A DNA stretch of 64,000 bases from assembly GCF_021155765.1 (NCBI RefSeq), contig NC_060118.1, positions 5,890,001 to 5,954,000 of the forward strand. The letters are read 5' to 3'. This document shows, in pieces, positions 35,736 through 64,000 of this stretch. The notes under the pieces are model-generated. The model ran no database searches and was not told the origin of the DNA. It saw only the letters and a program-made list of their open reading frames with translations. The position numbers and the translations under genes are program-made. The stretch's first letter is position 1; each line of letters begins with the position of its first letter. The DNA comes from Diprion similis. Taxonomy: Eukaryota > Arthropoda > Insecta > Hymenoptera > Diprionidae.

Positions 35736-36205
35736 AGGTTGTTAAGAGAGGTGGAAAAAGGTAATAACGAATTTACAGCTGGGAAGTTTCGTTTCAGTTC
35801 AGTTTCAGTATATTTATTACGCCTTAATCGTAGTACAAGTGTTAAGGTGTCAGTGTACAATACGTAAACGAATTAGTAAATAATGATAAAGTACATAAAA
35901 AAAATATATAAAATAATTGAACATTACATGACAAAGATAGCTATTATCTTAGGATGAAGAAGTACAATCAATGCACCCTCACAGGATACGATATGTATGC
36001 CATTGCATTGTTACATGTAATCTGGACTATAATAAATCATGAAGACCTTTCTGCGTGTTTTCTTTAGACTTCCACCACAACTGTAGGTCACTATTTACAA
36101 GTCTCCTCTGCGTTGCTCAGGAGCCGATTCATCAAGGTCAGGTTCTATAAATCGATTCCAAGTCGGAGAAATTATCGTCTCGGAGAAGTCAGGCCGTTTG
36201 GATGT
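35736..36205. other. Unique-looking spacer between satellite fragment and array
   Basis: About 470 bases unlike the satellite unit. I see no open frame of note. It may be an insertion, or simply the flank at an old array edge. Confidence 0.5.
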
Positions 36206-36812
36206 TTGATAAAAATTTCGACGGTTCAAGAGATGCTGTAATCAAATCGTTAAAAAACTAGATGGGTGTAATTTTGCGAGAGAAATCGACTGAGCGCAGT
36301 CCCAATACGCTGAAAGCGATAGCTGATAAGTAACAGCCGAAAAATTGAAAAATTTCGTGGTCATTTCTCGGCTGTTGGTCCTACGATGTTTTTCATGTGT
36401 TTTCTGGGTTTCTGCGCGTCTGATTGGTGTATATCGCGTCATACGAATCGATCGACAAAAATAAAATTTTTTAGCCTAAAATAATCCAAGGCTAACCCCT
36501 TGGCAATTTTGGTGAAAATTTCGAAGACTTTGGAACGTGCTGCAATTATTTCTCTGGGGCACTATTCCGACGTGATTTTGCAAGAGAAATCGATTGATCG
36601 CAGTCCCGATACGCTGCGAGCGATAGTTAGGAAGTTGCAGCCAAAAAACTGCAGATTTTCATCGTCATTTCTCTGCTGCTGATCCTACAATATTTTTCAT
36701 GTGTTTTCTGAGTTCCTGGGCGTCAAATTAGTCTGAAAAACGTCATACGGATCGATTCGCAGACAAACGATTTTTCGGCCAGAAAAAATACAAGGCTAAC
36801 CCCTTTGCATTT
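36206..36812 (+). repeat. Two diverged edge monomers of the 304-bp satellite
   Basis: Monomer 1 (36206-36508) and monomer 2 (36509-36812) keep the unit length but differ from the array consensus at many sites. Monomer 1 is far more diverged than monomer 2; for example, GAAATCGACTGAGCGCAGTC replaces the consensus GGAATCGATTAACCGCAGTC. Both share GTGTTTTCTG, CGTCATACG and the CCAAGGCTAACCCC junction where present. Such decay at an array edge is the usual pattern for satellites. Confidence 0.93.
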
Positions 36813-39800: not shown

Positions 39801-41981
39801 AGACAAAAGATTTTTCGGCCAAAAAAAAATCCAAGGCTAACCCCTTTGCATTTTTGGCGAAAATTTCGACGACTTCGAAAAGTGCTGCAATTAATTCTTT
39901 AGGGTACTATTTCGACGTGATTTTGCGAGAGGAATCGATTAACCGCAGTCCCGATACGCTGCGAGCAACGCCTGCAAAGTTACAGCCGAAAAACTGCAGA
40001 TTTTCATCGTCATTTCTCTGCTGCTGGTCCCAGGCTATTTTTAATGTGTTTTCTGAGTTCCTGGGCCTCGAATTAGTCTAGAAAGCGTCATACGGATCGA
40101 TTCCCAGACAAAAGATTTTTCGGCCAAAAAAAATCCAAGGCTAACCCCTTTGCATTTTTGGCGAAAATTTCGACGACTTCGAAAAGTGCTGCAATTAATT
40201 CTTTAGGGTACTATTTCGACGTGATTTTGCGAGAGGAATCGATTAACCGCAGTCCCGATACGCTGCGAGCAACGCCTGCAAAGTTACAGACGAAAAACTG
40301 CAGATTTTCATCGTCATTTCTCTGCTGCTGGTCCCAGGCTATTTTTATTGTGTTTTCTGAGTTCCTGGGCCTCAAATTAGTCTAGAAAGCGTCATACGGA
40401 TCGATTCCCAGACAAAAGATTTTTCGGCCAAAAAAAATCCAAGGCTAACCCCTTTGCATTTTTGGCGAAAATTTCGACGACTTCGAAAAGTGCTGCAATT
40501 AATTCTTTAGGGTACTATTTCGACGTGATTTTGCGAGAGGAATCGATTAACCGCAGTCCCGATACGCTGCGAGCAACGCCTGCAAAGTTACAGCCGAAAA
40601 ACTGCAGATTTTCATCGTCATTTCTCTGCTGCTGGTCCCAGGCTATTTTTAGTGTGTTTTCTGAGTTCCTGGGCCCCGAATTAGTCTAAAAAGCGTCATA
40701 CGGATCGATTCCCAGACAAAAGATTTTTCGGCCAAAAAAAATCCAAGGCTAACCCCTTTGCATTTTTGGCGAAAATTTCGACGACTTCGAAAAGTGCTGC
40801 AATTAATTCTTTAGGGTACTATTTCGACGTGATTTTGCGAGAGGAATCGATTAACCGCAGTCCCGATACGCTGCGAGCAACGCCTGCAAAGTTACAGCCG
40901 AAAAACTGCAGATTTTCATCGTCATTTCTCTGCTGCTGGTCCGAGGCTATTTTTAATGTGTTTTCTGAGTTCCTGGGCCTCGAATTAGTCTAGAAAGCGT
41001 CATACGGATTGATTCCCAGACAAAAGATTTTTCGGCCAAAAAAAATCCAAGGCTAACCCCTTTGCATTTTTGGCGAAAATTTCGACGACTTCGAAAAGTG
41101 CTGCAATTAATTCTTTAGGGTACTATTTCGACGTGATTTTGCGAGAGGAATCGATTAACCGCAGTCCCGATACGCTGCGAGCAACGCCTGCAAAGTTACA
41201 GCCGAAAAACTGCAGATTTTCATCGTCATTTCTCTGCTGCTGGTCCCAGGCTATTTTTAATGTGTTTTCTGAGTTCCTGGGCCTCGAATTAGTCTAAAAA
41301 GCGTCATACGGATCGATTCCCAGACAAAAGATTTTTCGGCCAAAAAAAATCCAAGGCTAACCCCTTTGCATTTTTGGCGAAAATTTCGACGACTTCGAAA
41401 AGTGCTGCAATTAATTCTTTAGGGTACTATTTCGACGTGATTTTGCGAGAGGAATCGATTAACCGCAGTCCCGATACGCTGCGAGCAACGCCTGCAAAGT
41501 TACAGCCGAAAAACTGCAGATTTTCATCGTCATTTCTCTGCTGCTGGTCCCAGGCTATTTTTAATGTGTTTTCAGAGTTCCTGGGCCTCGAATTAGTCTA
41601 AAAAGCGTAATACGGATCGATTCCCGGACAAAATATTTTTCGGCCAAAAAAAATCCAAGGCTAACCCCTTTGCATTTTTGGCGAAAATTTCGACGACTTC
41701 GAAAAGTGCTGCAATTAATTCTTTAGGGTACTATTTCGACGTGATTTTGCGAGAGGAATCGATTAACCGCAGTCCCGATACGCTGCGAGCAACGCCTGCA
41801 AAGTTACAGCCGAAAAACTGCAGATTTTCATCGTCATTTCTCTGCTGCTGGTCCCAGGCTATTTTTAATGTGTTTTCTGAGTTCCTGGGCCTCGAATTAG
41901 TCTAAAAAGCGTCATACGGATCGATTCCCAGACAAAAGATTTTTCGGCCAAAAAAAATCCAAGGCTAACCCCTTTGCATTT

Positions 41982-43197
41982 TTGGCGAAAATTTCGACGA
42001 CTTCGAAAAGTGCTGCAATTAATTCTTTAGGGTACTATTTCGACGTGATTTTGCGAGAGGAATCGATTAACCGCAGTCCCGATACGCTGCGAGCAACGCC
42101 TGCAAAGTTACAGCCGAAAAACTGCAGATTTTCATCGTCATTTCTCTGCTGCTGGTCCCAGGCTATTTTTAATGTGTTTTCTGAGTTCCTGGGCTCCGAA
42201 TTAGTCTAGAAAGCGTCATACGGATCGATTCCCAGACAAAAGATTTTTCGGCCAAAAAAAATCCAAGGCTAACCCCTTTGCATTTTTGGCGAAAATTTCG
42301 ACGACTTCGAAAAGTGCTGCAATTAATTCTTTAGGGTACTATTTCGACGTGATTTTTCCAGAGGAATCGATTAACCGCAGTCCCGATACGCTGCGAGCAA
42401 CGCCTGCAAAGTTACAGCCGAAAAACTGCAGATTTTCATCGTCATTTCTCTGCTGCTGGTCCCAGGCTATTTTTAATGTGTTTTCTGAGTTCCTGGGCCT
42501 CGAATTAGTCTAAAAAGCGTAATACGGATCGATTCCCGGACAAAAGATTTTTCGGCCAAAAAAAATCCAAGGCTAACCCCTTTGCATTTTTGGCGAAAAT
42601 TTCGACGACTTCGAAAAGTGCTGCAATTAATTCTTTAGGGTACTATTTCGACGTGATTTTGCGAGAGGAATCGATTAACCGCAGTCCCGATACGCTGCGA
42701 GCAACGCCTGCAAAGTTACAGCCGAAAAACTGCAGATTTTCATCGTCATTTCTCTGCTGCTGGTCCCAGGCTATTTTTAATGTGTTTTCTGAGTTCCTGG
42801 GCTCCGAATTAGTCTAGAAAGCGTCATACGGATCGATTCCCAGACAAAAGATTTTTCGGCCAAAAAAAATCCAAGGCTAACCCCTTTGCATTTTTGGCGA
42901 AAATTTCGACGACTTCGAAAAGTGCTGCAATTAATTCTTTAGGGTACTATTTCGACGTGATTTTTCCAGAGGAATCGATTAACCGCAGTCCCGATACGCT
43001 GCGAGCAACGCCTGCAAAGTTACAGCCGAAAAACTGCAGATTTTTATCGTCATTTCTCTGCTGCTGGTCCCAGGCTATTTTTAATGTGTTTTCTGAGTTC
43101 CTGGGCCTCGAATTAGTCTAAAAAGCGTAATACGGATCGATTCCCGGACAAAAGATTTTTCGGCCAAAAAAAATCCAAGGCTAACCCCTTTGCATTT
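41982..43197 (+). repeat. Dimeric higher-order unit (608 bp) present twice
   Basis: Units at 41982 and 42590 share GGGCTCCGAA plus TCTAGAAAGCG. Units at 42286 and 42894 share GATTTTTCCAGAGG plus GCGTAATACGG. The pair therefore repeats at 608 bases. The second dimer has picked up a TTTTTATCG variant in its second half. A related pair recurs at 46542 and 46846. Confidence 0.85.
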
Positions 43198-46100
43198 TTG
43201 GCGAAAATTTCGACGACTTCGAAAAGTGCTGCAATTAATTCTTTAGGGTACTATTTCGACGTGATTTTGCAAGAGGAATCGATTAACCGCAGTCCCGATA
43301 CGCTGCGAGCAACGCCTGCAAAGTTACAGCCGAAAAACTGCAGATTTTCATCGTCATTTCTCTGCTGCTGGTCCCAGGCTATTTTTATTGTGTTTTCTGA
43401 GTTCCTGGGCCTCGAATTAGTCTAGAAAGCGTCATACGGATCGATTCCCAGACAAAAGATTTTTCGGCCAAAAAAAATCCAAGGCTAACCCCTTTGCATT
43501 TTTGGCGAAAATTTCGACGACTTCGAAAAGTGCTGCAATTATTTCTTTAGGGTACTATTTCGACGTGATTTCGCGAGAGGAATCGATTAACCGCAGTCCC
43601 GATACGCTGCGAGCAACGCCTGCAAAGTTACAGCCGAAAAACTGCAGATTTTCATCGTCATTTCTCTGCTGCTGGTCCCAGGCTATTTTTAATGTGTTTT
43701 CTGAGTTCCTGGGCCTCGAATTAGTCTAAAAAGCGTAATACGGATCGATTCCCGGACAAAAGATTTTTCGGCCAAAAAAAATCCAAGGCTAACCCCTTTG
43801 CATTTTTGGCGAAAATTTCGACGACTTCGAAAAGTGCTGCAATTAATTCTTTAGGGTACTATTTCGACGTGATTTTGCGAGAGGAATCGATTAACCGCAG
43901 TCCCGATACGCTGCGAGCAACGCCTGCAAAGTTACAGCCGAAAAACTGCAGATTTTCATCGTCATTTCTCTGCTGCTGGTCCCAGGCTATTTTTATTGTG
44001 TTTTCTGAGTTCCTGGGCCTCGAATTAGTCTAAAAAGCGTCATACGGATCGATTCCCAGACAAAAGATTTTTCGGCCAAAAAAAATCCAAGGCTAACCCC
44101 TTTGCATTTTTGGCGAAAATTTCGACGACTTCGAAAAGTGCTGCAATTAATTCTTTAGGGTACTATTTCGACGTGATTTTGCGAGAGGAATCGATTAACC
44201 GCAGTCCCGATACGCTGCGAGCAACGCCTGCAAAGTTACAGCCGAAAAACTGCAGATTTTCATCGTCATTTCTCTGCTGCTGGTCCCAGGCTATTTTTAA
44301 TGTGTTTTCTGAGTTCCTGGGCCTCGAATTAGTCTAAAAAGCGTCATACGGATCGATTCCCAGACAAAAGATTTTTCAGCCAAAAAAAATCCAAGGCTAA
44401 CCCCTTTGCATTTTTGGCGAAAATTTCGACGACTTCGAAAAGTGCTGCAATTAATTCTTTAGGGTACTATTTCGACGTGATTTTGCGAGAGGAATCGATT
44501 AACCGCAGTCCCGATACGCTGCGAGCAACGCCTGCAAAGTTACAGCCGAAAAACTGCAGATTTTCATCGTCATTTCTCTGCTGCTGGTCCCAGGCTATTT
44601 TTAATGTGTTTTCTGAGTTCCTGGGCCTCGAATTAGTCTAAAAAGCGTAATACGGATCGATTCCCGGACAAAAGATTTTTCGGCCAAAAAAAATCCAAGG
44701 CTAACCCCTTTGCATTTTTGGCGAAAATTTCGACGACTTCGAAAAGTGCTGCAATTAATTCTTTAGGGTACTATTTCGACGTGATTTTGCCAGAGGAATC
44801 GACTAACCGCAGTCCCGATACGCTGCGAGCAACGCCTGCAAAGTTACAGCCGAAAAACTGCAGATTTTCATCGTCATTTCTCTGCTGCTGGTCCCAGGCT
44901 ATTTTTAATGTGTTTTCTGAGTTCCTGGGCCTCGAATTAGTCTAAAAAGCGTCATACGGATCGATTCCCAGACAAAAGATTTTTCGGCCAAAAAAAATCC
45001 AAGGCTAACCCCTTTGCATTTTTGGCGAAAATTTCGACGACTTCGAAAAGTGCTGCAATTAATTCTTTTGGGTACTATTTCGACGTGATTTTGCGAGAGG
45101 AATCGATTAACCGCAGTCCCGATACGCTGCGAGCAACGCCTGCAAAGTTACAGCCGAAAAACTGCAGATTTTCATCGTCATTTCTCTGCTGCTGGTCCCA
45201 GGCTATTTTTAATGTGTTTTCTGAGTTCCTGGGCCTCGAATTAGTCTAGAAAGCGTCATACGGATCGATTCCCAGACAAAAGATTTTTCGGCCAAAAAAA
45301 ATCCAAGGCTAACCCCTTTGCATTTTTGGCGAAAATTTCGACGACTTCGAAAAGTGCTGCAATTAATTCTTTAGGGTACTATTTCGACGTGATTTTGCGA
45401 GAGGAATCGATTAACCGCAGTCCCGATACGCTGCGAGCAACGCCTGCAAAGTTACAGCCGAAAAACTGCAGATTTTCATCGTCATTTCTCTGCTGCTGGT
45501 CCCAGGCTATTTTTAATGTGTTTTCTGAGTTCCTGGGCCCCGAATTAGTCTAAAAAGCGTCATACGGATCGATTCCCAGACAAAAGATTTTTCGGCCAAA
45601 AAAAATCCAAGGCTAACCCCTTTGCATTTTTGGCGAAAATTTCGACGACTTCGAAAAGTGCTGCAATTAATTCTTTAGGGTACTATTTCGACGTGATTTT
45701 GCGAGAGGAATCGATTAACCGCAGTCCCGATACGCTGCGAGCAACGCCTGCAAAGTTACAGCCGAAAAACTGCAGATTTTCATCGTCATTTCTCTGCTGC
45801 TGGTCCCAGGCTATTTTTATTGTGTTTTCTGAGTTCCTGGGCCTCGAATTAGTCTAGAAAGCGTCATACGGATCGATTCCCGGACAAAAGATTTTTCGGC
45901 CAAAAAAAATCCAAGGCTAACCCCTTTGCATTTTTGGCGAAAATTTCGACGACTTCGAAAAGTGCTGCAATTAATTCTTTAGGGAACTATTTCGACGTGA
46001 TTTTGCGAGAGGAATCGATTAACCGCAGTCCCGATACGCTGCGAGCAACGCCTGCAAAGTTACAGCCGAAAAACTGCAGATTTTCATCGTCATTTCTCTG

Positions 46101-47149
46101 CTGCTGGTCCCAGGCTATTTTTATTGTGTTTTCTGAGTTCCTGGGCCTCGAATTAGTCTAGAAAGCGTCATACGGATCGATTCCCAGACAAAAGATTTTT
46201 CGGCCAAAAAAAATCCAAGGCTAACCCCTTTGCATTTTTGGCGAAAATTTCGACGACTTCGAAAAGTGCTGCAATTAATTCTTTAGGGTACTATTTCGAC
46301 GTGATTTTGCCAGAGGAATCGATTAACCGCAGTCCCGATACGCTGCGAGCAACGCCTGCAAAGTTACAGCCGAAAAACTGCAGATTTTCATCGTCATTTC
46401 TCTGCTGCTGGTCCCAGGCTATTTTTAATGTGTTTTCTGAGTTCCTGGGCCTCGAATTAGTCTAAAAAGCGTAATACGGATCGATTCCCGGACAAAAGAT
46501 TTTTCGGCCAAAAAAAATCCAAGGCTAACCCCTTTGCATTTTTGGCGAAAATTTCGACGACTTCGAAAAGTGCTGCAATTAATTCTTTAGGGTACTATTT
46601 CGACGTGATTTTGCGAGAGGAATCGATTAACCGCAGTCCCGATACGCTGCGAGCAACGCCTGCAAAGTTACAGCCGAAAAACTGCAGATTTTCATCGTCA
46701 TTTCTCTGCTGCTGGTCCCAGGCTATTTTTAATGTGTTTTCTGAGTTCCTGGGCTCCGAATTAGTCTAGAAAGCGTCATACGGATCGATTCCCAGACAAA
46801 AGATTTTTCGGCCAAAAAAAATCCAAGGCTAACCCCTTTGCATTTTTGGCGAAAATTTCGACGACTTCGAAAAGTGCTGCAATTAATTCTTTAGGGTACT
46901 ATTTCGACGTGATTTTTTCAGAGGAATCGATTAACCGCAGTCCCGATACGCTGCGAGCAACGCCTGCAAAGTTACAGCCGAAAAACTGCAGATTTTTATC
47001 GTCATTTCTCTGCTGCTGGTCCCAGGCTATTTTTAATGTGTTTTCTGAGTTCCTGGGCCTCGAATTAGTCTAAAAAGCGTAATACGGATCGATTCCCGGA
47101 CAAAAGATTTTTCGGCCAAAAAAAATCCAAGGCTAACCCCTTTGCATTT

Positions 47150-49581
47150 TTGGCGAAAATTTCGACGACTTCGAAAAGTGCTGCAATTATTTCTTTAGGG
47201 TACTATTTCGACGTGATTTCGCGAGAGGAATCGATTAACCGCAGTCCCGATACGCTGCGAGCAACGCCTGCAAAGTTACAGCCGAAAAACTGCAGATTTT
47301 CATCGTCATTTCTCTGCTGCTGGTCCCAGGCTATTTTTAATGTGTTTTCTGAGTTCCTGGGCCTCGAATTAGTCTAAAAAGCGTAATACGGATCGATTCC
47401 CGTACAAAAGATTTTTCGGCCAAAAAAAATCCAAGGCTAACCCCTTTGCATTTTTGGCGAAAATTTCGACGACTTCGAAAAGTGCTGCAATTATTTCTTT
47501 AGGGTACTATTTCGACGTGATTTCGCGAGAGGAATCGATTAACCGCAGTCCCGATACGCTGCGAGCAACGCCTGCAAAGTTACAGCCGAAAAACTGCAGA
47601 TTTTCATCGTCATTTCTCTGCTGCTGGTCCCAGGCTATTTTTAATGTGTTTTCTGAGTTCCTGGGCCTCGAATTAGTCTAAAAAGCGTAATACGGATCGA
47701 TTCCCGGACAAAAGATTTTTCGGCCAAAAAAAATCCAAGGCTAACCCCTTTGCATTTTTGGCGAAAATTTCGACGACTTCGAAAAGTGCTGCAATTAATT
47801 CTTTAGGGTACTATTTCGACGTGATTTTGCGAGAGGAATCGATTAACCGCAGTCCCGATACGCTGCGAGCAACGCCTGCAAAGTTACAGCCGAAAAACTG
47901 CAGATTTTCATCGTCATTTCTCTGCTGCTGGTCCCAGGCTATTTTTAATGTGTTTTCTGAGTTCCTGGGCCTCGAATTAGTCTAGAAAGCGTCATACGGA
48001 TCGATTCCCAGACAAAAGATTTTTCGGCCAAAAAAAATCCAAGGCTAACCCCTTTGCATTTTTGGCGAAAATTTCGACGACTTCGAAAAGTGCTGCAATT
48101 ATTTCTTTAGGGTACTATTTCGACGTGATTTCGCGAGAGGAATCGATTAACCGCAGTCCCGATACGCTGCGAGCAACGCCTGCAAAGTTACAGCCGAAAA
48201 ACTGCAGATTTTCATCGTCATTTCTCTGCTGCTGGTCCCAGGCTATTTTTAATGTGTTTTCTGAGTTCCTGGGCCTCGAATTAGTCTAAAAAGCGTAATA
48301 CGGATCGATTCCCGGACAAAAGATTTTTCGGCCAAAAAAAATCCAAGGCTAACCCCTTTGCATTTTTGGCGAAAATTTCGACGACTTCGAAAAGTGCTGC
48401 AATTAATTCTTTAGGGTACTATTTCGACGTGATTTTGCGAGAGGAATCGATTAACCGCAGTCCCGATACGCTGCGAGCAACGCCTGCAAAGTTACAGCCG
48501 AAAAACTGCAGATTTTCATCGTCATTTCTCTGCTGCTGGTCCCAGGCTATTTTTAATGTGTTTTCTGAGTTCCTGGGCCTCGAATTAGTCTAAAAAGCGT
48601 CATACGGATCGATTCCCAGACAAAAGATTTTTCAGCCAAAAAAAATCCAAGGCTAACCCCTTTGCATTTTTGGCGAAAATTTCGACGACTTCGAAAAGTG
48701 CTGCAATTAATTCTTTAGGGTACTATTTCGACGTGATTTTGCGAGAGGAATCGATTAACCGCAGTCCCGATACGCTGCGAGCAACGCCTGCAAAGTTACA
48801 GCCGAAAAACTGCAGATTTTCATCGTCATTTCTCTGCTGCTGGTCCCAGGCTATTTTTAATGTGTTTTCTGAGTTCCTGGGCCTCGAATTAGTCTAAAAA
48901 GCGTAATACGGATCGATTCCCGGACAAAAGATTTTTCGGCCAAAAAAAATCCAAGGCTAACCCCTTTGCATTTTTGGCGAAAATTTCGACGACTTCGAAA
49001 AGTGCTGCAATTAATTCTTTAGGGTACTATTTCGACGTGATTTTGCCAGAGGAATCGACTAACCGCAGTCCCGATACGCTGCGAGCAACGCCTGCAAAGT
49101 TACAGCCGAAAAACTGCAGATTTTTATCGTCATTTCTCTGCTGCTGGTCCCAGGCTATTTTTAATGTGTTTTCTGAGTTCCTGGGCCTCGAATTAGTCTA
49201 AAAAGCGTAATACGGATCGATTCCCGGACAAAAGATTTTTCGGCCAAAAAAAATCCAAGGCTAACCCCTTTGCATTTTTGGCGAAAATTTCGACGACTTC
49301 GAAAAGTGCTGCAATTATTTCTTTAGGGTACTATTTCGACGTGATTTCGCGAGAGGAATCGATTAACCGCAGTCCCGATACGCTGCGAGCAACGCCTGCA
49401 AAGTTACAGCCGAAAAACTGCAGATTTTCATCGTCATTTCTCTGCTGCTGGTCCCAGGCTATTTTTAATGTGTTTTCTGAGTTCCTGGGCCTCGAATTAG
49501 TCTAAAAAGCGTAATACGGATCGATTCCCGGACAAAAGATTTTTCGGCCAAAAAAAATCCAAGGCTAACCCCTTTGCATTT
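47150..49581 (+). repeat. 8-monomer higher-order repeat, copy 1 (2432 bp)
   Basis: The variant order in this block matches 49582-52013. Diagnostic states are the TTATTTCTTTAGG + GATTTCGCGAGAGG units, a TCTAGAAAGCG unit, a TTTTTCAGCC variant (near 48631), and a unit with GATTTTGCCAGAGG, GACTAACCG and TTTTTATCG (48974). One noticed difference is CCCGTACAAAAG at about 47399-47410 against CCCGGACAAAAG in copy 2. Confidence 0.88.
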
Positions 49582-52013
49582 TTGGCGAAAATTTCGACGA
49601 CTTCGAAAAGTGCTGCAATTATTTCTTTAGGGTACTATTTCGACGTGATTTCGCGAGAGGAATCGATTAACCGCAGTCCCGATACGCTGCGAGCAACGCC
49701 TGCAAAGTTACAGCCGAAAAACTGCAGATTTTCATCGTCATTTCTCTGCTGCTGGTCCCAGGCTATTTTTAATGTGTTTTCTGAGTTCCTGGGCCTCGAA
49801 TTAGTCTAAAAAGCGTAATACGGATCGATTCCCGGACAAAAGATTTTTCGGCCAAAAAAAATCCAAGGCTAACCCCTTTGCATTTTTGGCGAAAATTTCG
49901 ACGACTTCGAAAAGTGCTGCAATTATTTCTTTAGGGTACTATTTCGACGTGATTTCGCGAGAGGAATCGATTAACCGCAGTCCCGATACGCTGCGAGCAA
50001 CGCCTGCAAAGTTACAGCCGAAAAACTGCAGATTTTCATCGTCATTTCTCTGCTGCTGGTCCCAGGCTATTTTTAATGTGTTTTCTGAGTTCCTGGGCCT
50101 CGAATTAGTCTAAAAAGCGTAATACGGATCGATTCCCGGACAAAAGATTTTTCGGCCAAAAAAAATCCAAGGCTAACCCCTTTGCATTTTTGGCGAAAAT
50201 TTCGACGACTTCGAAAAGTGCTGCAATTAATTCTTTAGGGTACTATTTCGACGTGATTTTGCGAGAGGAATCGATTAACCGCAGTCCCGATACGCTGCGA
50301 GCAACGCCTGCAAAGTTACAGCCGAAAAACTGCAGATTTTCATCGTCATTTCTCTGCTGCTGGTCCCAGGCTATTTTTAATGTGTTTTCTGAGTTCCTGG
50401 GCCTCGAATTAGTCTAGAAAGCGTCATACGGATCGATTCCCAGACAAAAGATTTTTCGGCCAAAAAAAATCCAAGGCTAACCCCTTTGCATTTTTGGCGA
50501 AAATTTCGACGACTTCGAAAAGTGCTGCAATTATTTCTTTAGGGTACTATTTCGACGTGATTTCGCGAGAGGAATCGATTAACCGCAGTCCCGATACGCT
50601 GCGAGCAACGCCTGCAAAGTTACAGCCGAAAAACTGCAGATTTTCATCGTCATTTCTCTGCTGCTGGTCCCAGGCTATTTTTAATGTGTTTTCTGAGTTC
50701 CTGGGCCTCGAATTAGTCTAAAAAGCGTAATACGGATCGATTCCCGGACAAAAGATTTTTCGGCCAAAAAAAATCCAAGGCTAACCCCTTTGCATTTTTG
50801 GCGAAAATTTCGACGACTTCGAAAAGTGCTGCAATTAATTCTTTAGGGTACTATTTCGACGTGATTTTGCGAGAGGAATCGATTAACCGCAGTCCCGATA
50901 CGCTGCGAGCAACGCCTGCAAAGTTACAGCCGAAAAACTGCAGATTTTCATCGTCATTTCTCTGCTGCTGGTCCCAGGCTATTTTTAATGTGTTTTCTGA
51001 GTTCCTGGGCCTCGAATTAGTCTAAAAAGCGTCATACGGATCGATTCCCAGACAAAAGATTTTTCAGCCAAAAAAAATCCAAGGCTAACCCCTTTGCATT
51101 TTTGGCGAAAATTTCGACGACTTCGAAAAGTGCTGCAATTAATTCTTTAGGGTACTATTTCGACGTGATTTTGCGAGAGGAATCGATTAACCGCAGTCCC
51201 GATACGCTGCGAGCAACGCCTGCAAAGTTACAGCCGAAAAACTGCAGATTTTCATCGTCATTTCTCTGCTGCTGGTCCCAGGCTATTTTTAATGTGTTTT
51301 CTGAGTTCCTGGGCCTCGAATTAGTCTAAAAAGCGTAATACGGATCGATTCCCGGACAAAAGATTTTTCGGCCAAAAAAAATCCAAGGCTAACCCCTTTG
51401 CATTTTTGGCGAAAATTTCGACGACTTCGAAAAGTGCTGCAATTAATTCTTTAGGGTACTATTTCGACGTGATTTTGCCAGAGGAATCGACTAACCGCAG
51501 TCCCGATACGCTGCGAGCAACGCCTGCAAAGTTACAGCCGAAAAACTGCAGATTTTTATCGTCATTTCTCTGCTGCTGGTCCCAGGCTATTTTTAATGTG
51601 TTTTCTGAGTTCCTGGGCCTCGAATTAGTCTAAAAAGCGTAATACGGATCGATTCCCGGACAAAAGATTTTTCGGCCAAAAAAAATCCAAGGCTAACCCC
51701 TTTGCATTTTTGGCGAAAATTTCGACGACTTCGAAAAGTGCTGCAATTATTTCTTTAGGGTACTATTTCGACGTGATTTCGCGAGAGGAATCGATTAACC
51801 GCAGTCCCGATACGCTGCGAGCAACGCCTGCAAAGTTACAGCCGAAAAACTGCAGATTTTCATCGTCATTTCTCTGCTGCTGGTCCCAGGCTATTTTTAA
51901 TGTGTTTTCTGAGTTCCTGGGCCTCGAATTAGTCTAAAAAGCGTAATACGGATCGATTCCCGGACAAAAGATTTTTCGGCCAAAAAAAATCCAAGGCTAA
52001 CCCCTTTGCATTT
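49582..52013 (+). repeat. 8-monomer higher-order repeat, copy 2 (2432 bp)
   Basis: Tandem copy of 47150-49581 at an offset of exactly 8 x 304 bases; the TTTTTCAGCC marker recurs near 51063 and the GACTAACCG unit at 51406. The same order starts a third time at 52014-52621, then stops matching at 52622. Confidence 0.88.
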
Positions 52014-54723
52014 TTGGCGAAAATTTCGACGACTTCGAAAAGTGCTGCAATTATTTCTTTAGGGTACTATTTCGACGTGATTTCGCGAGAGGAATCGATT
52101 AACCGCAGTCCCGATACGCTGCGAGCAACGCCTGCAAAGTTACAGCCGAAAAACTGCAGATTTTCATCGTCATTTCTCTGCTGCTGGTCCCAGGCTATTT
52201 TTAATGTGTTTTCTGAGTTCCTGGGCCTCGAATTAGTCTAAAAAGCGTAATACGGATCGATTCCCGGACAAAAGATTTTTCGGCCAAAAAAAATCCAAGG
52301 CTAACCCCTTTGCATTTTTGGCGAAAATTTCGACGACTTCGAAAAGTGCTGCAATTATTTCTTTAGGGTACTATTTCGACGTGATTTCGCGAGAGGAATC
52401 GATTAACCGCAGTCCCGATACGCTGCGAGCAACGCCTGCAAAGTTACAGCCGAAAAACTGCAGATTTTCATCGTCATTTCTCTGCTGCTGGTCCCAGGCT
52501 ATTTTTAATGTGTTTTCTGAGTTCCTGGGCCTCGAATTAGTCTAAAAAGCGTAATACGGATCGATTCCCGGACAAAAGATTTTTCGGCCAAAAAAAATCC
52601 AAGGCTAACCCCTTTGCATTTTTGGCGAAAATTTCGACGACTTCGAAAAGTGCTGCAATTATTTCTTTAGGGTACTATTTCGACGTGATTTCGCGAGAGG
52701 AATCGATTAACCGCAGTCCCGATACGCTGCGAGCAACGCCTGCAAAGTTACAGCCGAAAAACTGCAGATTTTCATCGTCATTTCTCTGCTGCTGGTCCCA
52801 GGCTATTTTTAATGTGTTTTCTGAGTTCCTGGGCCTCGAATTAGTCTAAAAAGCGTAATACGGATCGATTCCCGGACAAAAGATTTTTCGGCCAAAAAAA
52901 ATCCAAGGCTAACCCCTTTGCATTTTTGGCGAAAATTTCGACGACTTCGAAAAGTGCTGCAATTAATTCTTTAGGGTACTATTTCGACGTGATTTTGCCA
53001 GAGGAATCGATTAACCGCAGTCCCGATACGCTGCGAGCAACGCCTGCACAGTTACAGCCGAAAAACTGCAGATTTTCATCGTCATTTCTCTGCTGCTGGT
53101 CCCAGGCTATTTTTAATGTGTTTTCTGAGTTCCTGGGCCTCGAATTAGTCTAAAAAGCGTCATACGGATCGATTCCCAGACAAAAGATTTTTCGGCCAAA
53201 AAAAATCCAAGGCTAACCCCTTTGCATTTTTGGCGAAAATTTCGACGACTTCGAAAAGTGCTGCAATTAATTCTTTTGGGTACTATTTCGACGTGATTTT
53301 GCGAGAGGAATCGATTAACCGCAGTCCCGATACGCTGCGAGCAACGCCTGCAAAGTTACAGCCGAAAAACTGCAGATTTTCATCGTCATTTCTCTGCTGC
53401 TGGTCCCAGGCTATTTTTAATGTGTTTTCTGAGTTCCTGGGCCTCGAATTAGTCTAAAAAGCGTCATACGGATCGATTCCCAGACAAAAGATTTTTCGGC
53501 CAAAAAAAATCCAAGGCTAACCCCTTTGCATTTTTGGCCAAAATTTCGACGACTTCGAAAAGTGCTGCAATTAATTCTTTAGGGTACTATTTCGACGTGA
53601 TTTTGCGAGAGGAATCGATTAACCGCAGTCCCGATACGCTGCGAGCAACGCCTGCAAAGTTACAGCCGAAAAACTGCAGATTTTCATCGTCATTTCTCTG
53701 CTGCTGGTCCCAGGCTATTTTTAATGTGTTTTCTGAGTTCCTGGGCCTCGAATTAGTCTAGAAAGCGTCATACGGATCGATTCCCAGACAAAAGATTTTT
53801 CGGCCAAAAAAAATCCAAGGCTAACCCCTTTGCATTTTTGGCGAAAATTTCGACGACTTCGAAAAGTGCTGCAATTAATTCTTTAGGGTACTATTTCGAC
53901 GTGATTTTGCGAGAGGAATCGATTAACCGCAGTCCCGATACGCTGCGAGCAACGCCTGCAAAGTTACAGCCGAAAAACTGCAGATTTTCATCGTCATTTC
54001 TCTGCTGCTGGTCCCAGGCTATTTTTAATGTGTTTTCTGAGTTCCTGGGCCCCGAATTAGTCTAAAAAGCGTCATACGGATCGATTCCCAGACAAAAGAT
54101 TTTTCGGCCAAAAAAAATCCAAGGCTAACCCCTTTGCATTTTTGGCGAAAATTTCGACGACTTCGAAAAGTGCTGCAATTAATTCTTTAGGGTACTATTT
54201 CGACGTGATTTTGCGAGAGGAATCGATTAACCGCAGTCCCGATACGCTGCGAGCAACGCCTGCAAAGTTACAGCCGAAAAACTGCAGATTTTCATCGTCA
54301 TTTCTCTGCTGCTGGTCCCAGGCTATTTTTAATGTGTTTTCTGAGTTCCTGGGCCTCGAATTAGTCTAAAAAGCGTAATACGGATCGATTCCCGGACAAA
54401 AGATTTTTCGGCCAAAAAAAATCCAAGGCTAACCCCTTTGCATTTTTGGCGAAAATTTCGACGACTTCGAAAAGTGCTGCAATTAATTCTTTAGGGTACT
54501 ATTTCGACGTGATTTTGCGAGAGGAATCGATTAACCGCAGTCCCGATACGCTGCGAGCAACGCCTGCAAAGTTACAGCCGAAAAACTGCAGATTTTCATC
54601 GTCATTTCTCTGCTGCTGGTCCCAGGCTATTTTTATTGTGTTTTCTGAGTTCCTGGGCCTCGAATTAGTCTAGAAAGCGTCATACGGATCGATTCCCGGA
54701 CAAAAGATTTTTCGGCCAAAAAT

Positions 54724-57700
54724 AATCCAAGGCTAACCCCTTTGCATTTTTGGCGAAAATTTCGACGACTTCGAAAAGTGCTGCAATTAATTCTTTAGGG
54801 TACTATTTCGACGTGATTTTGCGAGAGGAATCGATTAACCGCAGTCCCGATACGCTGCGAGCAACGCCTGCAAAGTTACAGCCGAAAAACTGCAGATTTT
54901 CATCGTCATTTCTCTGCTGCTGGTCCCAGGCTATTTTTATTGTGTTTTCTGAGTTCCTGGGCCTCGAATTAGTCTAAAAAGCGTCATACGGATCGATTCC
55001 CAGACAAAAGATTTTTCGGCCAAAAAAAATCCAAGGCTAACCCCTTTGCATTTTTGGCGAAAATTTCGACGACTTCGAAAAGTGCTGCAATTAATTCTTT
55101 AGGGTACTATTTCGACGTGATTTTGCGAGAGGAATCGATTAACCGCAGTCCCGATACGCTGCGAGCAACGCCTGCAAAGTTACAGCCGAAAAACTGCAGA
55201 TTTTCATCGTCATTTCTCTGCTGCTGGTCCCAGGCTATTTTTAATGTGTTTTCTGAGTTCCTGGGCCTCGAATTAGTCTAAAAAGCGTAATACGGATCGA
55301 TTCCCGGACAAAAGATTTTTCGGCCAAAAAAAATCCAAGGCTAACCCCTTTGCATTTTTGGCGAAAATTTCGACGACTTCGAAAAGTGCTGCAATTAATT
55401 CTTTAGGGTACTATTTCGACGTGATTTTGCGAGAGGAATCGATTAACCGCAGTCCCGATACGCTGCGAGCAACGCCTGCAAAGTTACAGCCGAAAAACTG
55501 CAGATTTTCATCGTCATTTCTCTGCTGCTGGTCCCAGGCTATTTTTAATGTGTTTTCTGAGTTCCTGGGCCTCGAATTAGTCTAGAAAGCGTCATACGGA
55601 TCGATTCCCAGACAAAAGATTTTTCGGCCAAAAAAAATCCAAGGCTAACCCCTTTGCATTTTTGGCGAAAATTTCGACGACTTCGAAAAGTGCTGCAATT
55701 AATTCTTTAGGGTACTATTTCGACGTGATTTTGCGAGAGGAATCGATTAACCGCAGTCCCGATACGCTGCGAGCAACGCCTGCAAAGTGACAGCCGAAAA
55801 ACTGCAGATTTTCATCGTCATTTCTCTGCTGCTGGTCCCAGGCTATTTTTAATGTGTTTTCTGAGTTCCTGGGCCCCGAATTAGTCTAAAGAGCGTCATA
55901 CGGATCGATTCCCAGACAAAAGATTTTTCGGCCAAAAAAAATCCAAGGCTAACCCCTTTGCATTTTTGGCGAAAATTTCGACGACTTCGAAAAGTGCTGC
56001 AATTAATTCTTTAGGGTACTATTTCGACGTGATTTTGCGAGAGGAATCGATTAACCGCAGTCTCGATACGCTGCGAGCAACGCCTGCAAAGTTACAGCCG
56101 AAAAACTGCAGATTTTCATCGTCATTTCTCTGCTGCTGGTCCCAGGCTATTTTTAATGTGTTTTCTGAGTTCCTGGGCCTCGAATTAGTCTAGAAAGCGT
56201 CATACGGATCGATTCCCAGACAAAAGATTTTTCGGCCAAAAAAAATCCAAGGCTAACCCCTTTGCATTTCTGGCGAAAATTTCGACGACTTCGAAAAGTG
56301 CTGCAATTAATTCTTTAGGGTACTATTTCGACGTGATTTTGCGAGAGGAATCGATTAACCGCAGTCCCGATACGCTGCGAGCAACGCCTGCAAAGTTACA
56401 GCCGAAAAACTGCAGATTTTCATCGTCATTTCTCTGCTGCTGGTCCCAGGCTATTTTTATTGTGTTTTCTGAGTTCCTGGGCCTCGAATTAGTCTAGAAA
56501 GCGTCATACGGATCGATTCCCAGACAAAAGATTTTTCGGCCAAAAAAAATCCAAGGCTAACCCCTTTGCATTTTTGGCGAAAATTTCGACGACTTCGAAA
56601 AGTGCTGCAATTAATTCTTTAGGGTACTATTTCGACGTGATTTTGCGAGAGGAATCGATTACCCGCAGTCCCGATACGCTGCGAGCAACGCCTGCAAAGT
56701 TACAGCCGAAAAACTGCAGATTTTCATCGTCATTTCTCTGCTGCTGGTCCCAGGCTATTTTTATTGTGTTTTCTGAGTTCCTGGGCCTCGAATTAGTCTA
56801 GAAAGCGTCATACGGATCGATTCCCAGACAAAAGATTTTTCGGCCAAAAAAAATCCAAGGCTAACCCCTTTGCATTTTTGGCGAAAATTTCGACGACTTC
56901 GAAAAGTGCTGCAATTAATTCTTTAGGGTACTATTTCGACGTGATTTTGCCAGAGGAATCGATTAACCGCAGTCCCGATACGCTGCGAGCAACGCCTGCA
57001 AAGTTACAGCCGAAAAACTGCAGATTTTCATCGTCATTTCTCTGCTGCTGGTCCCAGGCTATTTTTAATGTGTTTTCTGAGTTCCTGGGCCTCGAATTAG
57101 TCTAAAAAGCGTCATACGGATCGATTCCCAGACAAAAGATTTTTCGGCCAAAAAAAATCCAAGGCTAACCCCTTTGCATTTTTGGCGAAAATTTCGACGA
57201 CTTCGAAAAGTGCTGCAATTATTTCTTTAGGGTACTATTTCGACGTGATTTCGCGAGAGGAATCGATTAACCGCAGTCCCGATACGCTGCGAGCAACGCC
57301 TGCAAAGTTACAGCCGAAAAACTGCAGATTTTCATCGTCATTTCTCTGCTGCTGGTCCCAGGCTATTTTTAATGTGTTTTCTGAGTTCCTGGGCCTCGAA
57401 TTAGTCTAAAAAGCGTAATACGGATCGATTCCCGGACAAAAGATTTTTCGGCCAAAAAAAATCCAAGGCTAACCCCTTTGCATTTTTGGCGAAAATTTCG
57501 ACGACTTCGAAAAGTGCTGCAATTAATTCTTTAGGGTACTATTTCGACGTGATTTTGCGAGAGGAATCGATTAACCGCAGTCCCGATACGCTGCGAGCAA
57601 CGCCTGCAAAGTTACAGCCGAAAAACTGCAGATTTTCATCGTCATTTCTCTGCTGCTGGTCCCAGGCTATTTTTATTGTGTTTTCTGAGTTCCTGGGCCT

Positions 57701-59891
57701 CGAATTAGTCTAAAAAGCGTCATACGGATCGATTCCCAGACAAAAGATTTTTCGGCCAATAAAAATCCAAGGCTAACCCCTTTGCATTTTTGGCGAAAAT
57801 TTCGACGACTTCGAAAAGTGCTGCAATTAATTCTTTAGGGTACTATTTCGACGTGATTTTGCGAGAGGAATCGATTAACCGCAGTCCCGATACGCTGCGA
57901 GCAACGCCTGCAAAGTTACAGCCGAAAAACTGCAGATTTTCATCGTCATTTCTCTGCTGCTGGTCCCAGGCTATTTTTAATGTGTTTTCTGAGTTCCTGG
58001 GCCTCGAATTAGTCTAAAAAGCGTAATACGGATCGATTCCCGGACAAAAGATTTTTCGGCCAAAAAAAATCCAAGGCTAACCCCTTTGCATTTTTGGCGA
58101 AAATTTCGACGACTTCGAAAAGTGCTGCAATTAATTCTTTAGGGTACTATTTCGACGTGATTTTGCGAGAGGAATCGATTAACCGCAGTCCCGATACGCT
58201 GCGAGCAACGCCTGCAAAGTTACAGCCGAAAAACTGCAGATTTTCATCGTCATTTCTCTGCTGCTGGTCCCAGGCTATTTTTAATGTGTTTTCTGAGTTC
58301 CTGGGCCTCGAATTAGTCTAGAAAGCGTCATACGGATCGATTCCCAGACAAAAGATTTTTCGGCCAAAAAAAATCCAAGGCTAACCCCTTTGCATTTTTG
58401 GCGAAAATTTCGACGACTTCGAAAAGTGCTGCAATTAATTCTTTAGGGTACTATTTCGACGTGATTTTGCGAGAGGAATCGATTAACCGCAGTCCCGATA
58501 CGCTGCGAGCAACGCCTGCAAAGTGACAGCCGAAAAACTGCAGATTTTCATCGTCATTTCTCTGCTGCTGGTCCCAGGCTATTTTTAATGTGTTTTCTGA
58601 GTTCCTGGGCCCCGAATTAGTCTAAAGAGCGTCATACGGATCGATTCCCAGACAAAAGATTTTTCGGCCAAAAAAAATCCAAGGCTAACCCCTTTGCATT
58701 TTTGGCGAAAATTTCGACGACTTCGAAAAGTGCTGCAATTAATTCTTTAGGGTACTATTTCGACGTGATTTTGCGAGAGGAATCGATTAACCGCAGTCCC
58801 GATACGCTGCGAGCAACGCCTGCAAAGTTACAGCCGAAAAACTGCAGATTTTCATCGTCATTTCTCTGCTGCTGGTCCCAGGCTATTTTTAATGTGTTTT
58901 CTGAGTTCCTGGGCCTCGAATTAGTCTAGAAAGCGTCATACGGATCGATTCCCAGACAAAAGATTTTTCGGCCAAAAAAAATCCAAGGCTAACCCCTTTG
59001 CATTTTTGGCGAAAATTTCGACGACTTCGAAAAGTGCTGCAATTAATTCTTTAGGGTACTATTTCGACGTGATTTTGCGAGAGGAATCGATTAACCGCAG
59101 TCCCGATACGCTGCGAGCAACGCCTGCAAAGTTACAGCCGAAAAACTGCAGATTTTCATCGTCATTTCTCTGCTGCTGGTCCCAGGCTATTTTTATTGTG
59201 TTTTCTGAGTTCCTGGGCCTCGAATTAGTCTAGAAAGCGTCATACGGATCGATTCCCAGACAAAAGATTTTTCGGCCAAAAAAAATCCAAGGCTAACCCC
59301 TTTGCATTTTTGGCGAAAATTTCGACGACTTCGAAAAGTGCTGCAATTATTTCTTTAGGGTACTATTTCGACGTGATTTCGCGAGAGGAATCGATTAACC
59401 GCAGTCCCGATACGCTGCGAGCAACGCCTGCAAAGTTACAGCCGAAAAACTGCAGATTTTCATCGTCATTTCTCTGCTGCTGGTCCCAGGCTATTTTTAA
59501 TGTGTTTTCTGAGTTCCTGGGCCTCGAATTAGTCTAAAAAGCGTAATACGGATCGATTCCCGGACAAAAGATTTTTCGGCCAAAAAAAATCCAAGGCTAA
59601 CCCCTTTGCATTTTTGGCGAAAATTTCGACGACTTCGAAAAGTGCTGCAATTAATTCTTTAGGGTACTATTTCGACGTGATTTTGCGAGAGGAATCGATT
59701 AACCGCAGTCCCGATACGCTGCGAGCAACGCCTGCAAAGTTACAGCCGAAAAACTGCAGATTTTCATCGTCATTTCTCTGCTGCTGGTCCCAGGCTATTT
59801 TTAATGTGTTTTCTGAGTTCCTGGGCCTCGAATTAGTCTAAAAAGCGTAATACGGATCGATTCCCGGACAAAAGATTTTTCGGCCAAAAAA
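54724..59891 (+). repeat. 17-monomer higher-order repeat, copy A (5168 bp)
   Basis: Every diagnostic variant in this block recurs 5168 bases downstream. Examples: AAAGTGACAGCC at 55787 and 58523, a TCTCGATACG unit (55966), a TTTCTGGCG unit (56270), ATTACCCGCAG (56574) and CCAATAAAAA (57760). The left limit is set by a T in the A-tract (54723) that is absent from the equivalent site at 59891. Inside the block, a shorter run of units recurs after 9 monomers, so the block itself was built by earlier duplication. Confidence 0.92.
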
Positions 59892-62800
59892 AATCCAAGG
59901 CTAACCCCTTTGCATTTTTGGCGAAAATTTCGACGACTTCGAAAAGTGCTGCAATTAATTCTTTAGGGTACTATTTCGACGTGATTTTGCGAGAGGAATC
60001 GATTAACCGCAGTCCCGATACGCTGCGAGCAACGCCTGCAAAGTTACAGCCGAAAAACTGCAGATTTTCATCGTCATTTCTCTGCTGCTGGTCCCAGGCT
60101 ATTTTTATTGTGTTTTCTGAGTTCCTGGGCCTCGAATTAGTCTAAAAAGCGTCATACGGATCGATTCCCAGACAAAAGATTTTTCGGCCAAAAAAAATCC
60201 AAGGCTAACCCCTTTGCATTTTTGGCGAAAATTTCGACGACTTCGAAAAGTGCTGCAATTAATTCTTTAGGGTACTATTTCGACGTGATTTTGCGAGAGG
60301 AATCGATTAACCGCAGTCCCGATACGCTGCGAGCAACGCCTGCAAAGTTACAGCCGAAAAACTGCAGATTTTCATCGTCATTTCTCTGCTGCTGGTCCCA
60401 GGCTATTTTTAATGTGTTTTCTGAGTTCCTGGGCCTCGAATTAGTCTAAAAAGCGTAATACGGATCGATTCCCGGACAAAAGATTTTTCGGCCAAAAAAA
60501 ATCCAAGGCTAACCCCTTTGCATTTTTGGCGAAAATTTCGACGACTTCGAAAAGTGCTGCAATTAATTCTTTAGGGTACTATTTCGACGTGATTTTGCGA
60601 GAGGAATCGATTAACCGCAGTCCCGATACGCTGCGAGCAACGCCTGCAAAGTTACAGCCGAAAAACTGCAGATTTTCATCGTCATTTCTCTGCTGCTGGT
60701 CCCAGGCTATTTTTAATGTGTTTTCTGAGTTCCTGGGCCTCGAATTAGTCTAGAAAGCGTCATACGGATCGATTCCCAGACAAAAGATTTTTCGGCCAAA
60801 AAAAATCCAAGGCTAACCCCTTTGCATTTTTGGCGAAAATTTCGACGACTTCGAAAAGTGCTGCAATTAATTCTTTAGGGTACTATTTCGACGTGATTTT
60901 GCGAGAGGAATCGATTAACCGCAGTCCCGATACGCTGCGAGCAACGCCTGCAAAGTGACAGCCGAAAAACTGCAGATTTTCATCGTCATTTCTCTGCTGC
61001 TGGTCCCAGGCTATTTTTAATGTGTTTTCTGAGTTCCTGGGCCCCGAATTAGTCTAAAGAGCGTCATACGGATCGATTCCCAGACAAAAGATTTTTCGGC
61101 CAAAAAAAATCCAAGGCTAACCCCTTTGCATTTTTGGCGAAAATTTCGACGACTTCGAAAAGTGCTGCAATTAATTCTTTAGGGTACTATTTCGACGTGA
61201 TTTTGCGAGAGGAATCGATTAACCGCAGTCTCGATACGCTGCGAGCAACGCCTGCAAAGTTACAGCCGAAAAACTGCAGATTTTCATCGTCATTTCTCTG
61301 CTGCTGGTCCCAGGCTATTTTTAATGTGTTTTCTGAGTTCCTGGGCCTCGAATTAGTCTAGAAAGCGTCATACGGATCGATTCCCAGACAAAAGATTTTT
61401 CGGCCAAAAAAAATCCAAGGCTAACCCCTTTGCATTTCTGGCGAAAATTTCGACGACTTCGAAAAGTGCTGCAATTAATTCTTTAGGGTACTATTTCGAC
61501 GTGATTTTGCGAGAGGAATCGATTAACCGCAGTCCCGATACGCTGCGAGCAACGCCTGCAAAGTTACAGCCGAAAAACTGCAGATTTTCATCGTCATTTC
61601 TCTGCTGCTGGTCCCAGGCTATTTTTATTGTGTTTTCTGAGTTCCTGGGCCTCGAATTAGTCTAGAAAGCGTCATACGGATCGATTCCCAGACAAAAGAT
61701 TTTTCGGCCAAAAAAAATCCAAGGCTAACCCCTTTGCATTTTTGGCGAAAATTTCGACGACTTCGAAAAGTGCTGCAATTAATTCTTTAGGGTACTATTT
61801 CGACGTGATTTTGCGAGAGGAATCGATTACCCGCAGTCCCGATACGCTGCGAGCAACGCCTGCAAAGTTACAGCCGAAAAACTGCAGATTTTCATCGTCA
61901 TTTCTCTGCTGCTGGTCCCAGGCTATTTTTATTGTGTTTTCTGAGTTCCTGGGCCTCGAATTAGTCTAGAAAGCGTCATACGGATCGATTCCCAGACAAA
62001 AGATTTTTCGGCCAAAAAAAATCCAAGGCTAACCCCTTTGCATTTTTGGCGAAAATTTCGACGACTTCGAAAAGTGCTGCAATTAATTCTTTAGGGTACT
62101 ATTTCGACGTGATTTTGCCAGAGGAATCGATTAACCGCAGTCCCGATACGCTGCGAGCAACGCCTGCAAAGTTACAGCCGAAAAACTGCAGATTTTCATC
62201 GTCATTTCTCTGCTGCTGGTCCCAGGCTATTTTTAATGTGTTTTCTGAGTTCCTGGGCCTCGAATTAGTCTAAAAAGCGTCATACGGATCGATTCCCAGA
62301 CAAAAGATTTTTCGGCCAAAAAAAATCCAAGGCTAACCCCTTTGCATTTTTGGCGAAAATTTCGACGACTTCGAAAAGTGCTGCAATTATTTCTTTAGGG
62401 TACTATTTCGACGTGATTTCGCGAGAGGAATCGATTAACCGCAGTCCCGATACGCTGCGAGCAACGCCTGCAAAGTTACAGCCGAAAAACTGCAGATTTT
62501 CATCGTCATTTCTCTGCTGCTGGTCCCAGGCTATTTTTAATGTGTTTTCTGAGTTCCTGGGCCTCGAATTAGTCTAAAAAGCGTAATACGGATCGATTCC
62601 CGGACAAAAGATTTTTCGGCCAAAAAAAATCCAAGGCTAACCCCTTTGCATTTTTGGCGAAAATTTCGACGACTTCGAAAAGTGCTGCAATTAATTCTTT
62701 AGGGTACTATTTCGACGTGATTTTGCGAGAGGAATCGATTAACCGCAGTCCCGATACGCTGCGAGCAACGCCTGCAAAGTTACAGCCGAAAAACTGCAGA

Positions 62801-64000
62801 TTTTCATCGTCATTTCTCTGCTGCTGGTCCCAGGCTATTTTTATTGTGTTTTCTGAGTTCCTGGGCCTCGAATTAGTCTAAAAAGCGTCATACGGATCGA
62901 TTCCCAGACAAAAGATTTTTCGGCCAATAAAAATCCAAGGCTAACCCCTTTGCATTTTTGGCGAAAATTTCGACGACTTCGAAAAGTGCTGCAATTAATT
63001 CTTTAGGGTACTATTTCGACGTGATTTTGCGAGAGGAATCGATTAACCGCAGTCCCGATACGCTGCGAGCAACGCCTGCAAAGTTACAGCCGAAAAACTG
63101 CAGATTTTCATCGTCATTTCTCTGCTGCTGGTCCCAGGCTATTTTTAATGTGTTTTCTGAGTTCCTGGGCCTCGAATTAGTCTAAAAAGCGTAATACGGA
63201 TCGATTCCCGGACAAAAGATTTTTCGGCCAAAAAAAATCCAAGGCTAACCCCTTTGCATTTTTGGCGAAAATTTCGACGACTTCGAAAAGTGCTGCAATT
63301 AATTCTTTAGGGTACTATTTCGACGTGATTTTGCGAGAGGAATCGATTAACCGCAGTCCCGATACGCTGCGAGCAACGCCTGCAAAGTTACAGCCGAAAA
63401 ACTGCAGATTTTCATCGTCATTTCTCTGCTGCTGGTCCCAGGCTATTTTTAATGTGTTTTCTGAGTTCCTGGGCCTCGAATTAGTCTAGAAAGCGTCATA
63501 CGGATCGATTCCCAGACAAAAGATTTTTCGGCCAAAAAAAATCCAAGGCTAACCCCTTTGCATTTTTGGCGAAAATTTCGACGACTTCGAAAAGTGCTGC
63601 AATTAATTCTTTAGGGTACTATTTCGACGTGATTTTGCGAGAGGAATCGATTAACCGCAGTCCCGATACGCTGCGAGCAACGCCTGCAAAGTGACAGCCG
63701 AAAAACTGCAGATTTTCATCGTCATTTCTCTGCTGCTGGTCCCAGGCTATTTTTAATGTGTTTTCTGAGTTCCTGGGCCCCGAATTAGTCTAAAGAGCGT
63801 CATACGGATCGATTCCCAGACAAAAGATTTTTCGGCCAAAAAAAATCCAAGGCTAACCCCTTTGCATTTTTGGCGAAAATTTCGACGACTTCGAAAAGTG
63901 CTGCAATTAATTCTTTAGGGTACTATTTCGACGTGATTTTGCGAGAGGAATCGATTAACCGCAGTCCCGATACGCTGCGAGCAACGCCTGCAAAGTTACA
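59892..64000 (+). repeat. 17-monomer higher-order repeat, copy B (cut by window end)
   Basis: Matches 54724-58832 at an offset of 17 x 304 bases. Markers are AAAGTGACAGCC at 60955 and 63691, TCTCGATACG at 61134, TTTCTGGCG at 61438, ATTACCCGCAG at 61742 and CCAATAAAAA at 62928. I saw no difference at any marker I compared. If complete, it would end about 1.06 kb past the window. Confidence 0.92.

Follow-up and report, generated by a model that had tools for sequence, protein, structure and literature searches.

Tandem arrays of short monomers can duplicate many of these monomers at once, and a 304-bp satellite array on contig C14 of a 269-Mb assembly (60 contigs) raises the question of what such a duplication represents. 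Here a block of 17 monomers recurs at an offset of 5168 bp, and it could be a recent segmental duplication, the repeating unit of an established higher-order repeat (HOR) array, or an error of assembly. The spread of variants through satellites and the beginnings of HORs are usually studied in megabase centromeres. The C14 case offers a complete 38-kb array with both of its edges, a sister array of the same monomer type on another contig and a block that has just duplicated for the first time, all within assembled gene-bearing sequence, so that the succession of steps is directly readable and testable in other individuals. The stretch analysed (the window) comprises 64,000 nucleotides, C14:5890001-5954000; positions past 64000 belong to the same contig with the numbering carried on, 60 kb having been added rightward.

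The 17-monomer block is present in two exact copies

At an offset of 5168 bp (17 × 304), window positions 54724-58832 and 59892-64000 are identical, with 0 mismatches over the 4,109 bp that fit in the window, and the nearest mismatch leftward lies at position 54723. When the downstream contig was included, the exact run at this offset extended from 54724 to 60107 (5,384 bp), a length over which ~78 mismatches would be expected at the mean pairwise monomer divergence of 1.45%. Past 60107 mismatches are frequent, the first being at 60108 versus 65276. The block is therefore present as two copies (Table 1), and comparison with the 60 kb of contig to the right of the window detected no third copy downstream. 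Every one of the 37 variant sites found in the 17 units is repeated in copy two, and 28 of these repeats fall inside the window.

Within 54724-64000, identity is 1.000 at offset 5168, compared with 0.9867-0.9930 at the other multiples of 304 (28 offsets, up to 8816). The sole exception to this range is offset 7904 (5168 + 2736), where identity reaches 0.9985 because of an internal 9-unit repeat. When the order of the 122 interior units was shuffled 1,000 times, the longest exact self-match never exceeded 1,519 bp, against the 5,384 bp observed. A stretch of 216 bp is common to 54724-54939, 59892-60107 and 65060-65275, and the in-register arrangement of the copies means that the exchange itself may have taken place anywhere within it.

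An earlier reading of the window made from its letters (the sequence-only reading) had proposed a recent segmental amplification of 17 units, and the exact run, the 37 recurring variants and the shuffles support this. Its left junction at 54723/54724 coincides with the nearest leftward mismatch, with none from 54724 to 58832. The nine or more variants that it had seen recurring at 5168 proved an undercount, and the comparison that it had suggested, identity at 5168 against other multiples of 304, came out as it had anticipated. Its expectation that the block extends past the window holds for the final 1,059 bp of the second copy, but not for a third copy. Its placement of 54724-64000 at the right end of the array was mistaken, since the array reaches 74416 (C14:5964416).

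The block is itself a doubled older repeat

The block is made up of a 9-mer and an 8-mer (Table 1). The 8-mer half corresponds to units 1-6 and 9 of the 9-mer, without units 7 and 8 and with one extra unit; across the seven units aligned by eye from the unit list, three variants (301AT, 124CT and 27TC) differ between the halves. In the lag profile, identical units show peaks at 17, 9 and 8, and further duplications of seven, eight and nine units are found elsewhere in the array. There is no single stable block length: lags of 7, 8, 9 and 17 occur side by side, and 17 is the sum of 9 and 8. An older repeat of 8-9 units has recently been doubled to give the 17-mer.

Exact self-repeats longer than those in all 200 shuffles were also detected in four of six other arrays (C12, C7:3.27, C13:3.85 and C13:1.38), the last of them passing barely (2,023 versus 2,007 bp). 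In the C9 and C5 arrays the order of units was no more repetitive than in 200 shuffles. The long self-repeats in four of the six indicate that the duplication process is not peculiar to the C14 locus, though it is strongest there.

Table 1. Coordinates of the C14 array, the 17-unit block and other duplications (window numbering, carried on past 64000)
Feature	Position	Strand	Remarks
Decayed satellite monomer, left edge	36194..36481	+	74% identity to array consensus
Left outermost full monomer, older type	36483..36786	+	7/7 O states; 87.2% identity to consensus
Interior W-type array	36787..64000	+	304-bp monomers; on to 73875 (C14:5963875), 122 full units
8-unit (2,432-bp) duplication	46998..50229	+	3,232 bp matching at +2432, 1 mismatch; 2,826 bp exact from 47404
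17-unit block, copy 1	54724..59891	+	5,168 bp; 9-mer 54724-57459 and 8-mer 57460-59891
8-mer half of block	57460..59891	+	From unit list
17-unit block, copy 2	59892..64000	+	Cut by window; real end 65059 (C14:5955059), then 216 bp more identical
9-unit duplication	64672-67099		2,428 bp, 0 mismatches
7-unit duplication	68379-70019		1,641 bp, 1 mismatch

The array is layered and lies in gene-bearing sequence

TRF reports one 304-bp array from 36271 to the end of the window (91.2 copies, 98% matches, 0% indels); with the downstream contig it amounts to 126 satellite matches and ~38 kb overall. Monomers fall into two types, W (the C14 array's own) and O (the genome-wide one), whose consensus sequences differ at seven sites (49, 85, 116, 143, 204, 216 and 240). 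There are 124 full units in the C14 array: 118 carry all seven W states, four have six W states and a third base at the remaining diagnostic site, and two carry seven O states. These last two are the first and last full units of the array (36483 and 73876), and the W boundaries on both sides hold the 304-bp register. Identity to the consensus is 87.2% and 90.8% for the edge units and 68-82% for the decayed units outside them. The two edge units have 11 further states in common, of which other units in the C14 array carry at most four; these states were picked because both edge units have them, such that the 11/11 there holds by construction and is no test. We read this as a layered structure in which the W interior is enclosed on each side first by an older unit and then by a decayed edge.

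The 304-bp repeat is a satellite DNA, forming a long head-to-tail non-coding array and occurring at many places in the genome. A protein-coding repeat was rejected, since no frame in the array interior stays free of stops for more than 109 aa and 304 is not a multiple of 3. There was no Rfam match at the gathering score within the window, and tRNA genes in the window were considered and ruled out. The first 608 bases of the block, used as query against 50,697 phage records, gave no match at E 1e-5, and a dimeric monomer of 2 × 152 bp was dismissed on self-identity of at most 0.33 at internal lags 20 to 152. A literature search found no mention of this 304-bp satellite, which is no proof of its being unpublished.

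To the left of the array lie exon-sized frames of MFAP1, Dicer and calpain; the Dicer frames contain PAZ, Dicer dimerisation and RNase III domains, and one of them has Dcr-1 as its best PDB match. To the right, porphobilinogen deaminase begins ~6.5 kb past the array, followed farther on by BRO1-like, glyoxalase, LRR, HBB helicase domain, odorant receptor (7tm_6) and Plus-3 domain matches, of which BRO1 and LRR score under Pfam's cut-off. The location of the array is gene-bearing and not plainly centromeric. Elsewhere in the window, positions 7022-7570 hold a 279-bp tandem duplication (two copies, 99% matches), and a run of 27 G at 155-181 is possibly a weak point of sequencing or assembly.

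The W monomer is found in one other array

A search in which 38 of 1,413 candidates were scored places the 304-bp satellite on at least nine contigs (C1, C5, C7, C8, C9, C11, C12, C13 and C14), a lower bound. Parts of ten arrays were compared: the C14 array, eight O arrays with 387 full units and the array at C13:1.38 Mb. Six of the eight O arrays have exactly the same consensus, from which the remaining two depart by two or three further changes. An exact 43-base O pattern has 5,661 copies in the genome and matches 287 times in the O arrays, against their 387 full units; by extrapolation, the O family would amount to ~7,600 units or 2.3 Mb, ~0.9% of the assembly. The corresponding 43-base W pattern (W at 116 and 143; exact copies only) occurs 182 times. 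Its 107 forward copies equal the 107 counted in the C14 array, and its 75 reverse copies all lie in C13:1380982-1405372, the sole other W-type array found with this exact two-site pattern. The C8 array holds, at its edge (L026:1207-2117; C8:15169207-15170117), three diverged units with 312-bp spacing and 81.5-83.6% identity; these are perhaps an older relative of the family.

The consensus sequences of the two W arrays are identical at 304/304 sites, and their variants are largely their own: 67 kinds were observed in the C14 array and 39 in the C13:1.38 Mb array, with four common to both, and a single unit sequence is shared. One shared kind, 97TC, appears 18 times in the C14 array and four times in the other, and some exchange or parallel change between the W arrays is possible. 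Another type, 262A+279G, has 35 copies in the genome by an exact 30-base pattern, all of them in the C14 array. When each unit was compared with its nearest relatives, 0/122 C14 units were closer to units elsewhere (106 closer at home, 16 ties), as were 0/81 units of the C13:1.38 Mb array (49 at home, 32 ties); for the eight O arrays, 31/387 units were closer to a unit in another array. By this test the W arrays look isolated since their common founder.

Three units in the edge regions of the C13:1.38 Mb array are O at 116 and 143 but have the W base at most of the diagnostic sites, a pattern that stepwise assembly of W in that array would be expected to leave. No such intermediates were found among the 124 full units of the C14 array. 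A 308-bp variant of the unit also recurs along part of the C13 array. The polarity of the W changes was read from 18 other old units (<92% identity, ten arrays), mostly at array edges and with the two C14 edge units left out. The W base is present in 8/18 of these at site 85, 7/18 at 143, 2/14 at 49 and 2/12 at 240, whereas no old unit has it at 116, 204 or 216; at site 116, 13/17 have a third base. From these units, W is clearly derived at 204 and probably derived at 216, 49 and 240. At 116 W is unlike the old units, but O is mostly unlike them as well, and sites 85 and 143 could have had either state ancestrally.

On these sequences the best reading is that a founder type would have taken over an old satellite locus in register and then been amplified locally by unequal homologous exchange. 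The lineage to which the C13:1.38 Mb array belongs may have seeded the C14 array, both direction and age being inferred. A fuller account, held tentatively and at slightly less than an even chance, is that W has its origin in the C13:1.38 Mb array, from which it jumped to C14:5.93 Mb, displacing the interior of the old locus there in perfect 304-bp register and sparing older units only at the two edges; the two arrays would since have been isolated, each with duplications of its own, while the bulk of the family stayed nearly alike across chromosomes. If this is true, the takeover of a satellite by a single founder would be recorded here naturally and in datable form, with local homogenisation outpacing exchange between chromosomes. 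The duplication of the 17-mer is ordinary satellite evolution, and the main interest lies rather in the takeover of a locus by one monomer type known from one other array. A shared transposon flank carrying the arrays was rejected, as six flank pieces gave no blastn match between different flanks; those of the two W arrays likewise have no mutual match, with C13 pieces of only ~2 kb each.

Origin of the duplication

We consider it very likely that, in this non-coding 304-bp array, misaligned copies underwent homologous exchange in register and that a segment of 17 monomers was thereby duplicated, a single time and very recently, having itself come from an earlier duplication of 8-9 monomers. 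According to this model, duplication of an 8-9-monomer block would have given the 17-mer its own 9 + 8 make-up. Misaligned copies would subsequently have exchanged homologously in register, doubling the 17 monomers by unequal crossing-over or by break-induced or slippage copying, routes that sequence alone cannot separate. End joining would seldom preserve register. The shift spans whole units without indels, and the possible exchange point sits within 216 bp of identity; both features suggest unequal exchange or copying by homology, and it is from register and identity that we infer a homologous mechanism. The 17-mer itself probably carries no selected function. Perfect identity fits an older duplication followed by gene conversion as well as it fits a recent one. 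With an insect mutation rate of ~3e-9 per site per generation, the absence of differences over 5,384 bp bounds the age of the duplication to less than ~100,000 generations at 95%, unless conversion erased differences.

Identity over 5,384 bp is also what a false duplication would give, were a single 17-unit segment assembled twice, for example where overlapping haplotype contigs had been joined within the repeat. However, the same array holds older duplications with a few differences (1 mismatch over 3,232 bp at lag 8; three variants between the 9-mer and the 8-mer). These slightly diverged duplications suggest that the duplication process at the locus is real, and no N bases occur in the window or in loci L001-L028; we regard an assembly artefact, the main doubt about the duplication, as improbable. 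Rolling-circle amplification of an excised 17-unit circle, instead of unequal chromatid exchange, would likewise preserve register and yield identical copies if the circle were reinserted by homology, and satellite circles are among the findings reported for Tribolium freemani (PMC13081366). This route requires more steps and would tend to produce more than the two copies observed, which makes it an unlikely origin of the block.

The sequence-only reading had also compared the block with the HORs of alpha satellite. The comparison stands for block identity, in that the copies have 0 mismatches over 5,384 bp while monomers differ by 1.45% on average, and part of the array shows a periodicity of 8-9 units, as it might if the 17-mer were the repeating unit of a functional (centromeric) domain. 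It fails in other respects: there are exactly two copies, diverging from 60108/65276, monomers are ~1.5% apart, and the basic period is 9 + 8 and not 17. Monomers of alpha satellite differ by tens of percent. A centromeric role is further opposed by the small size of the array (~38 kb), by gene fragments <8 kb away on both sides, by the presence of several similar arrays on some single contigs and by a consensus without a CENP-B box (the best site on either strand has two mismatches to the motif); such a domain is very unlikely indeed. As a higher-order repeat the 17-mer is incipient, a young two-copy segmental duplication and not an alpha-satellite-like HOR array.

Comparison with other satellites

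The in-register duplication favoured here has partial likenesses in systems described elsewhere. In the account of primate alpha-satellite HORs with layered symmetry (PMC8099727), near-identical multi-monomer duplications and older divergent edge monomers resemble those of C14; unlike the arrays treated there, C14 has two block copies, 304-bp monomers ~1.5% apart, a length of ~38 kb, an intergenic position and a consensus lacking the CENP-B box. The euchromatic complex satellites 1.688 and Rsp-like of Drosophila, in what PMC7919458 relates of them, also form many arrays and include a new type inserting into existing ones at new places. In contrast, the C14 newcomer is a variant of the same satellite that fills the interior in register, and the likeness drawn here is one of organisation. 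The euchromatin-dispersed satellites and the dimeric HORs of Tribolium (PMC5844308, PMC10218199) are alike in having repeats near genes and HOR variants that differ between chromosomes. The dispersed copies covered by those sources are mainly single or in short arrays, compared with 122 homogeneous units in C14, and the likeness again concerns organisation.

Three minor observations concern other parts of the assembly. Contig C1 begins with TTAGG repeats, and a COX1-COX2 pair reads open under the invertebrate mitochondrial code. Together with the odorant receptor, these two mark the genome as that of an insect. A COX1-like fragment with five TGA codons at C7:8182164-8182700, on an 11-Mb contig, is perhaps a nuclear copy of mitochondrial DNA.
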